This document shows, in pieces, positions 28,282-59,047 of a stretch of DNA of 64,000 nt (position 1 is the first letter of the stretch; every line of letters begins with the position of its first letter). The stretch spans positions 372,001-436,000 of the forward strand of contig NZ_CANLSU010000003.1 in the NCBI RefSeq assembly GCF_947493875.1, given 5' to 3'. The notes below the pieces were generated by a model that worked only from the letters and a program-made list of their open reading frames with translations, made no database searches and was not told the origin of the DNA. This stretch comes from an uncultured Marinococcus sp. GTDB taxonomy: Bacteria; Bacillota; Bacilli; Bacillales; Marinococcaceae. The position numbers and the translations under genes are program-made.

Positions 28282-28302
28282 AAGACACCAGGTTCGTGTC
28301 TT
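28282..28302 (-). terminator. Terminator after ypiA
   Basis: A 7-bp stem (28282-28288 with 28296-28302) is followed on the minus strand by TTT-rich sequence. It overlaps the last base of the ypiA stop and lies before ypjA. Confidence 0.6.
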
Positions 28303-29561
28303 CATTCGCTCATTCGAAGGTCTTCAAGCAAAAGCTGAAGCTCAGTGTTATCCGGCTGCATGGCCGAAGCCTGCTCCAGATGCTTCAACGCATTCTCCCG
28401 GTAGCCGAGCTCAAGCAGCAGACGGCCGTATTCTTCAAGAAATACTTCGTTTTCCTGATACACGCTGTACACTTCTTCGTATTTTTCTTTTGCTTCGACG
28501 GGCTCGTCCTGAAGATTTTTAGCCCGGGCGTAGTACCACTGAAAACGCACATCCGGCTCGCCCATTTCGTATAAATGATCAATCAGGTCAATCATTGCCT
28601 CCGGTTCTTCCTGCTCCATCCACATGCTGAGAAGCGCATTCGCCGCTTCAAGATGAGCCGGATTTAAAGCAAGCGCCTCCTTGAGATGTTTTTCTCCCTC
28701 TTCTTCGTTGCCAAGCGCCATATACAGCTTCCCGGCCTCGGTATATAGATTTTCATTGTATTCATCTTCTTTAATGCCAGCCTTGGCTGCTTCGAGGGCT
28801 TTTTCATGGTCCTCGAGGCCTTCGTAGCTTCGCACGAGATACGGATAGAGGGCTACAAAGTCTTTATCCATGTTCCGGAGCTCTTCGAATTTTTCCGCAG
28901 CAAGCTGATAATCGCTGACCTGCAGCGCCGTATAGCCGTACCCAAACAAAGCATGGAGCTCCGTGTGTTCTTTCAGTCCGGCCTCGTAGTAGCTCAGCGC
29001 ATCCTCAAACGAACCGGTCACGCTGTAAGCTTCAGCGAGACGAAGACTCAGGCTCCCATCCGGAAATTTAAACCCGGCACCTTCCGCCTGCTTCAAATAA
29101 GGAATGCTCTTAGCGTAGTCTCCGCGGGATAAATAATAATCCCCGACGGCGGCAAGCAGCACCGGCTCTTCAGGACTCTGCTTTAGTGCATCCAAAAGCT
29201 TCTGTTCCGCTACTTCATCGAGCCCCTGCATCTGATACAAGTCAGCAAGCAGCAGCTGCGCCCGCAGATACTCTTCGTCCGACTCCTTTACCTCAAGCAG
29301 CCACTCAATCGCCTCATCCTCATCGTCAAGATCAATCGCATTCTCGGCTGCAGTAGTCAGCAGTGCCCCTTCATCGGGATAGCGTCCAAGCAGGTCTTCA
29401 ATCAGCGGCTGTGCCTTATCCGAGCGGCCCAGCTCCTGATACATTTCCACTATATCGTATTTTTCCTGATCATTTGCAGAGTGGCTGTATTTCTCCATCT
29501 CTTCAAGCCCTTTTTCCGTATCGCCGTTTCTTATCGTTTCAAGGATCGTTTCTAAATTCAC
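28302..29561 (-). CDS. ypiA: YpiA-like tetratricopeptide-repeat protein
   Basis: 419-residue cytoplasmic protein made almost wholly of TPR helix pairs (roughly ten), very acidic. No enzyme motif. It corresponds to B. subtilis YpiA, which lies after the tyrA-aroE end of the aromatic supraoperon. Start is GTG at 29561 with GAAAGG upstream. A candidate promoter with extended -10 (TGCTATAAT; hexamer 29614-29609) precedes it, and a cre-like site is centred about 68 bp upstream of the predicted transcription start. TPR proteins act as binding scaffolds; partners unknown. Confidence 0.8.
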   Translation of the reverse strand: MNLETILETIRNGDTEKGLEEMEKYSHSANDQEKYDIVEMYQELGRSDKAQPLIEDLLGRYPDEGALLTTAAENAIDLDDEDEAIEWLLEVKESDEEYLRAQLLLADLYQMQGLDEVAEQKLLDALKQSPEEPVLLAAVGDYYLSRGDYAKSIPYLKQAEGAGFKFPDGSLSLRLAEAYSVTGSFEDALSYYEAGLKEHTELHALFGYGYTALQVSDYQLAAEKFEELRNMDKDFVALYPYLVRSYEGLEDHEKALEAAKAGIKEDEYNENLYTEAGKLYMALGNEEEGEKHLKEALALNPAHLEAANALLSMWMEQEEPEAMIDLIDHLYEMGEPDVRFQWYYARAKNLQDEPVEAKEKYEEVYSVYQENEVFLEEYGRLLLELGYRENALKHLEQASAMQPDNTELQLLLEDLRMSE

Positions 29562-29608
29562 GCCGTCAACAACCTTTCTTCCAGGTAAATCTCGTTTAGC
29601 ACTGTGTA

Positions 29609-29614
29609 ATTATA
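29609..29614 (-). promoter_or_regulatory. Extended -10 element of the ypiA promoter
   Basis: On the minus strand TATAAT (29614-29609) is preceded by TGC. A -35 element is poor (TTCGTC, 18-bp spacer), which fits a promoter needing an activator or depending on the extended -10. Confidence 0.55.
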
Positions 29615-29663
29615 GCAAACATTGCCCGCTGTGACGAACAGAAAACCTTCTATACGCAGAACG

Positions 29664-29677
29664 TGATAACGTTTACA
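29664..29677 (-). promoter_or_regulatory. Perfect cre-like (CcpA-binding) site
   Basis: On the minus strand the sequence is TGTAAACGTTATCA, matching the classical cre consensus TGWAANCGNTNWCA at 14 of 14 positions. It lies just after the T-run of the candidate small RNA and upstream of the ypiA promoter, a placement used by CcpA for activation in some genes. Chance expectation for this consensus in a random 64-kb window (both strands) is about 0.1. Confidence 0.6.
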
Positions 29678-29682
29678 AAAAC

Positions 29683-29778
29683 AAAAAAAACACCTGATGT
29701 CTACTCATCAGGTGTGCCGCCACATCGGCTAGTTTTAAGATAAAGAGTATGGATAGGAGTGGAGAGAAACCATACGCT
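29683..29778 (-). ncRNA. Candidate C/U-rich small regulatory RNA (about 95 nt)
   Basis: Between tyrA and ypiA the minus strand carries a complete small transcription unit. A consensus promoter predicts a start near 29778. The RNA begins with a hairpin closed by a 6-bp stem (29775-29770 with 29752-29747) and a 17-base C/U-rich loop containing CUCUCCACUCC, complementary to Shine-Dalgarno-like GGAGUGGAGAG. A linker of about 30 bases follows, then a 10-bp terminator stem (29715-29706 with 29699-29690) and eight U residues. The only plus-strand reading frame is 15 codons with no ribosome-binding site. I do not recognise it as a named family. The loop suggests an RNA that pairs with ribosome-binding sites (inference). 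Confidence 0.6.
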
Positions 29779-29784
29779 AATATT

Positions 29785-29812
29785 AGTATAACGTAATTGT
29801 AAGCGTTGTCAA
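29785..29812 (-). promoter_or_regulatory. SigA promoter of the small RNA with embedded cre-like site
   Basis: On the minus strand TTGACA (29812-29807), a 16-bp spacer and TATACT (29790-29785). A cre-like sequence, TGTAAGCGTTGTCA read on the plus strand at 29798-29811, matches TGWAANCGNTNWCA at all 14 positions and covers the -35 hexamer and spacer, the usual place for CcpA repression. Confidence 0.65.
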
Positions 29813-29845
29813 TGCTTCTCTCCTATTTTTTTATCCTTTTTTCGG

Positions 29846-30946
29846 TTAACCAATGTAGGATTCATAATCGTGCTTTTCAAGCTGCTGCATGCCGGCCCGC
29901 CGGTCGTCTTCAGTACGGAACGTCAACTGCAGCACGCCCATAATGTCCTCTCTCGTCTCAAGGATCCGGATATTGATAATACTGATGCCGGTCCGGCCAA
30001 GAATTCCGGTTACATCCGAGATAACTCCGGGATGGTCCGGCACGTCGACAAACAGGTCATAAATGGCCGGTATGGCCCCCTGCTTCTTGGCAGGCAGTCC
30101 ATCACGATAGGACTTGGCATGCTCAAAAAACTGGTAAATCTGCTCTTTATCCCCCGCGGCAAGCATCTGTTCAATGGCGCTCATCTGCTGCTTCCAGTCC
30201 TCCATCAGCTGCCGCATCACGTCATTGTTTTTCAGCAGAATATCCGTCCACATTTCCGGGCTGGCTGAAGCGATTCTCGTAATATCCCGGAACCCTCCGG
30301 CAGCGAGCTTTGTCACCCATGCCTGTTCGTCCTCCATCCCCTTCACCTGATGCACAAGGGCCGATGCCACAATATGCGGAAAATGACTGATGACGCCTGT
30401 CAGCAGGTCGTGCTGTTCGTAGGAGAGCTCAATAAATTTCGCCTGTGTGCCCTGAAGCCAATCTTTAATCTCACCAATCTTTTCAGAAGAGCCCGGCCCG
30501 TTTGGCACCAGCACGTAGTAGGCATTTTCAAACAGACGGACACGGGCAGCGTGGACACCGCTTTTATGGGAACCGGCCATGGGATGGCCGCCAATAAAAT
30601 GAACGTTCTTTTCCGAAAGAACGTCTGCCTGCTCGCAGATCGATGTTTTTGTACTGCCGACGTCGGTAACGATAGCTCCGGGCTTTAAAGGCATGCCAGC
30701 CAGCTGCACGAGCAATTTCTCAGTGGTGGCAACCGGAGTGGCAAGCACAACCAGATCTGCTTCTTTTACAGCGTTCTCCAGGTCCGGGGCAGCCTCATCA
30801 ATAACACTCAAGGATACCGCCAGCTTTGTCTGGGCTTCATCTACATCTGTTCCTGTAATATAAACACCGGGATGTTCCTGTTTGATGGCAAGGGCAATTG
30901 ACCCTCCGATCAGTCCCAGCCCGATAACTGCTGCTTTTTTCTGCAT
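29846..30946 (-). CDS. tyrA: Prephenate dehydrogenase with C-terminal ACT domain
   Basis: 366-residue enzyme converting prephenate to 4-hydroxyphenylpyruvate with NAD. N-terminal Rossmann motif GLGLIGGS (about 10-17), the GGHPMAGS motif of the active site, and a C-terminal ACT domain from about 295 (DHPGVISDVTGILG), which in Bacilli gives feedback inhibition by tyrosine. Last gene of the aromatic supraoperon here; the EPSP synthase gene that follows it in B. subtilis is missing. Confidence 0.95.
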   Translation of the reverse strand: MQKKAAVIGLGLIGGSIALAIKQEHPGVYITGTDVDEAQTKLAVSLSVIDEAAPDLENAVKEADLVVLATPVATTEKLLVQLAGMPLKPGAIVTDVGSTKTSICEQADVLSEKNVHFIGGHPMAGSHKSGVHAARVRLFENAYYVLVPNGPGSSEKIGEIKDWLQGTQAKFIELSYEQHDLLTGVISHFPHIVASALVHQVKGMEDEQAWVTKLAAGGFRDITRIASASPEMWTDILLKNNDVMRQLMEDWKQQMSAIEQMLAAGDKEQIYQFFEHAKSYRDGLPAKKQGAIPAIYDLFVDVPDHPGVISDVTGILGRTGISIINIRILETREDIMGVLQLTFRTEDDRRAGMQQLEKHDYESYIG

Positions 30947-58891: not shown

Positions 58892-59047
58892 AAAAGGCCT
58901 TCTTCCTTAGACAGAAGAAGACCTTGGCATGCAATACTTCTTCTCATCTCGCAAGCACAGCTTGCAGGAGTTAGCACCTGACCGCATTGCCTGCGGCTGG
59001 TTGCTGAGACTTCCAAGGGCCGATCCCTCCATCTCTCTTGATAAGAA
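58892..59047 (-). promoter_or_regulatory. SAM-I (S-box) riboswitch with terminator
   Basis: On the minus strand the aptamer runs from 59047 to 58941. P1 pairs TTCTTATC with GATGAGAA; the invariant segments CAAGAGAGATGGAGGGA, AGTCTCAGCAACC and AGGTGCTAACTCC are all present. A terminator follows at 58925-58892 (AAGGTCTTCTTC paired with GAAGAAGGCCTT, then TTTT). GAAGAAG after P1 can pair with the terminator's first arm to form an antiterminator. SAM binding should switch off metI-yitJ. Confidence 0.95.

Follow-up and report, generated by a model that had tools for sequence, protein, structure and literature searches.

A candidate small RNA gene between tyrA and ypiA

The window (the whole 64,000-nucleotide stretch of an uncultured Marinococcus sp. 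contig that was analysed) carries a candidate small RNA gene on its minus strand, between tyrA (prephenate dehydrogenase; 29846..30946) upstream and the gene of a TPR protein (28302..29561) downstream, which we take to be ypiA, a name adopted from an earlier note on this DNA. Both neighbours also lie on the minus strand, and their identities rest on Pfam names obtained for a homologue of each (L290 for tyrA and L020, a TPR protein, for ypiA). Marinococcus is placed in the class Bacilli by NCBI, and the TyrA of the window shares 95%–98% identity with the TyrA proteins of M. halotolerans, M. halophilus, and M. luteus.

Both direct reading and a promoter scan gave a −35 hexamer, TTGACA (29807..29812), and a −10 hexamer, TATACT (29785..29790), on the minus strand, with a spacing of 16 bp between positions 29812-29807 and 29790-29785. 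This promoter agrees with the consensus at 11 of its 12 bases and is the best of six sites in 4 kb, shuffled sequences having a mean of 3.7 sites. The predicted RNA comprises 96 nt (29683..29778, minus strand), from A29778, a start placed by the promoter, to T29683, and closes with a terminator stem-loop (29690..29715) whose 10-bp stem is followed by a run of eight T (29690-29683), the first of them paired. The earlier note had described TTGACA-16 bp-TATACT, about 95 nt, a 10-bp stem, and eight T, all of which we recover on the minus strand at 29812-29683. A promoter and an intrinsic terminator within an intergenic region, the arrangement expected of trans-encoded base-pairing small RNAs, are thus both predicted here. 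The folding energy of the 96 nt, to which the terminator contributes much, is −28.1 kcal/mol (z = −3.6), with none of 200 shuffles equal or better.

Near its 5′ end, the RNA holds a C/U-rich segment, UUUCUCUCCACUCCUA (29754..29769, minus strand), that is conserved across loci and is hereafter called the seed. A predicted 5′ hairpin, GUAUGG/CCAUAC (29747..29775, minus strand), would present this seed, with CUCUCCACUCC inside a predicted 17-nt loop (29769-29753). Covariation in the 5′ stem was sought and not found (76.7% of cells paired vs 76.6% in shuffles), even though the true register pairs better than slid registers (22%–50%). The hairpin proposed in the earlier note accordingly lacks covariation support, and we read the conserved part as the seed, hairpin-presented in some lineages only; in f32 (f and g numbers are family and genus labels), the same seed is enclosed by UUCUG/CAGAA. 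The middle hairpin is variable, with at least four pairs in 64 of 107 loci and 44 different arm pairs, although these pairs were derived from folded structures and so provide no independent test.

Conservation and distribution in Bacilli

Searching the 41 nearest genomes by BLAST with 156 nt yielded matches in 29 at E ≤ 2e-6 and in 36 at E ≤ 1, the former being all 25 genomes of the family and four of the 16 others. Of the 30 loci returned, 28 contain an exact copy of the 25-mer ATGGTTTCTCTCCACTCCTATCCAT, a conservation beyond chance. One genome of the same family (G014, locus L028) has an altered RNA copy, in which the loop is without CC, the 3′ arm is lost, and the cre operator of the terminator (see below) is retained. 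In L030, the 23-nt core was not found at up to six mismatches.

A covariance model built on the first 40 nt of the RNA was searched in class and order genomes. Across the class Bacilli, it matched 237 of 398 genomes at E ≤ 1 and 123 at E ≤ 1e-5 (the latter by our count from the result table), in many families. Within the order, 88 of 199 genomes matched at E ≤ 1 and 37 at E ≤ 4e-10, after which the values jump to 7e-5. Among 17 order members with no model match, the locus could be read past aroA in 16, none of which has the seed at fewer than two edits, the closest being a two-edit match on the opposite strand in G040, and the seventeenth locus stops at a contig edge. From all loci gathered, we retained the 108 (90 distinct sequences) that have a TANNNT box, a T-run, and the 16-nt seed without mismatch; as selection criteria, these three features are no evidence within that set, in which the seed is invariant and the flanks are variable and to which the altered copy of G014 does not belong. 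A promoter with at least 9 of 12 consensus bases lies upstream of the seed in 106 of the 108 loci, at 13–17 nt from it in 93 of the 106.

The seed region could conceivably be coding, since an ATG that starts at nucleotide 6 of the window's RNA opens a short frame that might specify a leader-type micropeptide (AUG GUU UCU CUC CAC UCC UAU CCA ...). However, no ribosome-binding site precedes this ATG, third codon positions are fixed as much as the others, and an ATG-GTT frame is missing from L203, L208, L099, L101, L273-L275, L279, L280, L282, and L283, all of which keep the seed. Because the frame is not conserved, we rejected the micropeptide, which we hold to be very improbable.

No Rfam family matched the RNA at its gathering score, either in the window or in 12 distant loci. 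Three matches at E ≤ 10 fall on 29500-29900, all far under their cut-offs, and the best on the strand of the RNA is to rliG, at 17.7 bits vs a cut-off of 55. Assignment to a known family (RoxS/RsaE, FsrA, or other) was rejected for want of a covariance-model match at gathering score. Elsewhere in the window, the Rfam scan located a SAM riboswitch (RF00162, 82.3 bits; 58941-59047, minus strand). A mobile or phage origin was likewise rejected, with no exact 18-mer in viral contigs, no 35-mer in plasmids, and no match of the 156 nt in phages. Judged from its sequence, the RNA is a member of an undescribed small-RNA family that has no Rfam match and is found across many Bacilli.

Genomic neighbourhood

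The nearest upstream gene is aroA in 58 loci, tyrA in 23, and a gene that we take to be hisC-like in four, together 85 of the 108 (one member each of the aroA, or EPSP synthase, and tyrA clusters was named by Pfam), and we counted a ypiA homologue within about 1.5 kb in 45 of the 108. The statement in the earlier note that the RNA replaces the EPSP-synthase gene is inexact, given that aroA so often directly precedes it in relatives. In L005, two Bacillaceae-1 RNAs (RF01690; 1147-1214 and 1717-1784) flank the small RNA gene on both sides.

The preponderance of aroA, tyrA, or hisC-like genes upstream would also suit an alternative in which the RNA is a part of the 3′ UTR of the tyrA (or aroA) operon, close to the terminator and generated by read-through and processing; such an RNA may still act in trans. 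No terminator separates tyrA from the RNA; the operon therefore probably ends at the terminator of the RNA, and the RNA may double as the 3′ end of the tyrA operon transcript. Nonetheless, the nearly universal promoter upstream of the seed speaks against the 3′ UTR explanation, as does the arrangement in five loci (L026, L077, L079, L080, and L081), where aroA or tyrA adjoins the RNA downstream and on the opposite strand, as if by gene inversion, and the RNA therefore cannot be their 3′ UTR. An operator at the promoter, described next, would be senseless under pure processing. We consider a 3′ UTR origin improbable and favour an independently transcribed gene.

Predicted control by CcpA

Two candidate CcpA operators, absent from the earlier note, lie near the RNA on the minus strand of the window. 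The first, TGACAACGCTTACA (29798..29811), covers the −35 box, differs by one mismatch from TGWAANCGNTNWCA, which we adopted as the cre consensus for scoring, and is present in all four Marinococcus. The second, TGTAAACGTTATCA (29664..29677), is a perfect cre just past the terminator and upstream of ypiA, exact in three of the four Marinococcus and with one mismatch in the fourth. Every one of 28 near loci has a cre with at most one mismatch, compared with one such site in 78.6 kb of flanking DNA of the same loci (one strand). It is situated at the terminator in the 24 near loci from outside Marinococcus, and in Marinococcus at the −35 box and just after the terminator.

With zero or one mismatch, on either strand and from −60 to +125 of the seed, a cre occurs in 77 of the 108 loci vs 13 of 1514 background windows; the 31 loci without one by this definition include all 10 of f37 and four of f54. 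A predicted cre at the promoter or in the transcribed region, as in members of the CcpA regulon, thus characterizes most of the set. An operator in such a position, at the transcription unit or within it, is suggestive of repression by glucose, and the RNA appears to be tied to sugar control.

Predicted targeting of aroG

The best-supported target is the mRNA of aroG, the bifunctional chorismate mutase/DAHP synthase that is the first enzyme of aromatic amino-acid synthesis, and the RNA probably blocks its translation. The ribosome-binding sites of aroG were examined regardless of any motif. Among near relatives, for which the loci returned allowed aroG and pheA to be read in 30 of the 41 genomes, GAGTGG is found in the aroG ribosome-binding site of 21 of 22 genomes with the RNA (defined here by a 156-nt BLAST match at E ≤ 2e-6) and in none of eight without it; the single exception is G014, the carrier of the altered RNA. 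Class-wide, a genome was scored as having the RNA at a covariance-model E ≤ 0.01, and G121 (E 0.04), which has the exact 12-mer at the edge of a contig, was added. On this basis, GAGTGG occurs in 9 of the 43 genomes that have the RNA and in none of the 26 that lack it. These 69 genomes are those read out of 98 with a match, and their count includes three unusable rows (G063, G083, and G089; contig edge or N) that were left out of the duplex-energy comparison below. Other registers of the seed are also used by aroG sites across the class, for example GGTGGAGAGAA and GAGAAACC.

The predicted duplex energy of aroG sites with GGUUUCUCUCCACUCCUAUCC averaged −20.4 kcal/mol (family means) with the RNA vs −12.9 kcal/mol without it, in 64 and 32 genomes from 22 and 18 families, respectively, f33 and f50 being in both groups. 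This difference of −7.5 compares with −2.1 ± 1.1 for 300 shuffled seeds, none of which gave one as large. Plain anti-Shine-Dalgarno pairing at aroG does not differ between the groups (−11.4 vs −11.7), and the genes downstream of the RNA, read in 63 loci, had a mean of −13.7. Genomes that have the RNA cluster into clades, as do those that lack it, so the association does not amount to many independent events; it was also taken at family level. A good aroG site is missing despite the RNA in both f43 genomes, in two of three f54 genomes, and in G104 and G067. Overall, the seed is complementary to conserved target sites, as expected of a base-pairing RNA, with the pairing itself being a prediction.

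Other predicted targets

In Marinococcus, the same seed complement as at aroG is carried by pheA, ackA, gnd, lacF, and an NAD-binding oxidoreductase gene. The predicted duplexes (aroG −23.4, pheA −26.0, ackA −22.4, gnd −21.4, lacF −23.4, and oxidoreductase −31.9) stand out from 53 genes of the window (mean −12.6, sd 4.1), whose start codons were picked by anti-Shine-Dalgarno strength rather than annotation and of which tyrA pairs best (−22.4, z −2.05). The oxidoreductase ribosome-binding site is complementary over 20 of 23 nt in all four Marinococcus, and its product is homoserine-dehydrogenase-like only at the edge of the Pfam cut-off. Two targets named in the earlier note, aroC (41001; −18.6 kcal/mol, z −1.0) and plsY (49940; −15.3, z +0.45), presumably these genes from our reading of their N-termini, come within about 1 sd of shuffled seeds and find no support. 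What stands of that proposal is an independent small RNA gene with promoter, C/U-rich seed, terminator, and probable action at Shine-Dalgarno sequences, and the target prediction against ribosome-binding sites that it recommended led instead to sites elsewhere in the genome that recur on orthologues from several genera, in aroG, pheA, and others.

The second matches from the near-relative and model searches fell into two kinds, namely additional copies of the RNA (L098-L101) and ribosome-binding sites with complementarity to the seed region. The galT ribosome-binding site is complementary over 22 and 21 of 23 nt in two f72 genomes (L096 and L097, where the frame preceding it resembles galK by our reading), a gene we take to be purB-like over 19, and a WVELL-domain gene over 18. 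Across the 25 family genomes, we counted 126 occurrences of the 11-mer AGGAGTGGAGA, of which 24 are the RNA itself and 102 are other sites, against 38 (reversed), 76 (permuted), and 39 (reverse of permuted) for control 11-mers; the excess is confined to some genera, counts falling below the permuted control in g8 and g11. A start codon opening a frame of at least 40 residues shortly follows 52 of the 69 sites read, which came from 10 family genomes plus G029, G466, and G561 and include eight from loci preselected for complementarity. Sites recur at orthologues, namely aroG in g1, g6, and g7; pheA in g1, g3, g6, and g7; serA in g3 and g6; serC in g6 and g12; and ackA and gnd in g1, with NCBIfam names (one 160-residue piece each) mostly below the curated cut-off because the pieces are partial. 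Complementarity at pheA over at least 9 nt, seen in 12 of the 25 genomes that carry the RNA and in one of the five that lack it, looks lineage-specific.

In distant genomes, 29 of 71 sites read for a 12-mer precede a start codon and nine were recognised as the RNA, the remainder including f32 extra copies, the second RNA of f37, and intragenic sites. Recurring genes there are gnd (f32), hom, a lactose-type PTS IIA, and an acyl-CoA dehydrogenase; Pfam named gnd, PTS IIA, and one acyl-CoA dehydrogenase, and we take the gene of L264 to be hom and those of L265 and L267 to encode acyl-CoA dehydrogenase.

Additional copies, a second RNA, and anti-seed sequences

Further copies of the small RNA, with partly different flanks, were found at L098, L099, L100, and L101 (G277, G242, and two in G074). 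Moreover, f37 has a second RNA gene (L232:616-742, plus strand; also L234, L235, L238, and L239) with the seed TCTCTCCACTCCTA, an ACCTCCT stretch resembling the anti-Shine-Dalgarno sequence, a terminator, and a cre over the −35 box; the first, aroA-linked RNA of this family is without cre in all 10 loci. The second RNA was detected in 11 of 299 class genomes, all of f37; in one of these, a contig edge limits the match to 28 nt. A twelfth match came from f48, where 30 nt aligned at the promoter of the first RNA. No Rfam family matched the second RNA.

Stretches of 9–12 nt complementary to the seed region ("anti-seed") occur within 60 nt upstream in 8 of the 108 loci (L002, L043, L047, L055, L058, L060, L227, and L228) vs 14 of 2052 control windows, and in seven of the eight they lie between or at the −35 and −10 boxes. 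An operon mRNA reading through such an anti-seed could mask or sponge the RNA. In the window, a related ATAGGAGAGAA is found at 29826-29816, just upstream of the −35 box.

Near-invariance of the seed, its recurrence in extra copies and a second RNA, and complementary stretches just upstream of it would each be compatible with a conserved 5′ segment that binds a protein or titrates another RNA as a decoy, rather than pairing with mRNAs. We regard this as having only an outside chance, as aroG sites follow the presence of the RNA across families and the seed complement precedes the start codons of recurring orthologues, both of which argue for an mRNA-pairing seed.

Proposed mechanism and relation to known small RNAs

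Gene anatomy, class-wide conservation, cre sites, and the complementarity of aroG together with its association with the RNA lead us to propose, with a probability of roughly 0.7, a trans-acting, CcpA-gated base-pairing small RNA that represses aroG and other genes through their ribosome-binding sites. Its own sigma-A-type promoter would start the RNA and its own terminator would end it. With sugar plentiful, CcpA would bind the cre and repress the RNA, which would accumulate when sugar is scarce. This cre lies at the promoter in Marinococcus, among others, and at the terminator in the remainder of its family and in some others. Once sugar is scarce, the seed would pair in the cell with ribosome-binding sites of an unusual kind, (AU)AGGAGUGGAGAGA, and block translation of aroG and, depending on lineage, of pheA, serA, serC, hom, ackA, gnd, lactose-type PTS IIA, galT, and others, the presumed purpose being to keep PEP, erythrose-4-phosphate, and 3-phosphoglycerate from being drawn off into amino acids.

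A wider version is possible but, with all its parts taken jointly, rather doubtful. Here, the RNA would be an ancient riboregulator of Bacilli coupling catabolite control to the entry into aromatic, serine, and aspartate-family synthesis; with the operator inside the RNA's own terminator in many lineages, CcpA may act on elongation or termination, the anti-seed would mask or sponge the RNA in some clades, and the cre-controlled role would have moved to the second RNA in f37.

If true, the CcpA-gated RNA would be a widely conserved trans-acting small RNA of Firmicutes outside Rfam, linking sugar status, through CcpA, to the channelling of PEP and erythrose-4-phosphate into aromatic amino-acid synthesis at a control point useful for metabolic engineering. 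It would also be a Gram-positive counterpart, probably reached independently, of the control of aroG by GcvB. RsaI of Staphylococcus aureus is a small RNA under CcpA.

In Escherichia coli, GcvB represses aroG, in addition to other amino-acid genes, by pairing at the translation initiation region, according to the accessible part of PMC11878033. A similar trans-acting repressor at the aroG initiation region is predicted here from complementarity and co-occurrence with the RNA, both of which we observed, although GcvB belongs to another phylum and has several seeds, whereas the Marinococcus-type RNA has one near-invariant seed and sits in an aromatic operon with cre sites; we liken the two by function and not by descent. 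Closer in phylum, RoxS/RsaE and FsrA of Bacillus subtilis and others are short RNAs whose C-rich single strands have been proposed or shown to pair with targets, several of them at the ribosome-binding site (PMC8464778, accessible part). They share their brevity and C-rich single strands with the RNA described here but differ in seed, location, main predicted target, and regulator (Fur, ResD, or Rex vs cre).

The same portion of PMC8464778 lists SR1 and RosA of B. subtilis as small RNAs under CcpA; SR1 differs in its 205 nt and encoded peptide and RosA in being a sponge, and neither an aroG target nor a terminator-internal cre is mentioned for them there. That portion also gives five trans-encoded B. 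subtilis RNAs with known targets, none of which matches by description. Among titles and abstract openings on CcpA/cre small RNAs, DAHP synthase, Paenibacillus/Brevibacillus, B. methanolicus, RsaI, and ypiA/tyrA, a scope mostly outside subscription papers, we found no description of the RNA; the seed letters as a query returned only titles unrelated to it, and the accessible part of PMC8632094 has tyrA in the reference list only. In Paenibacillus riograndensis, 27 small RNAs have been reported, three of them annotated by Rfam, and going by the accessible part of that report (PMC5670726), a Marinococcus-type RNA could be among those left unannotated.
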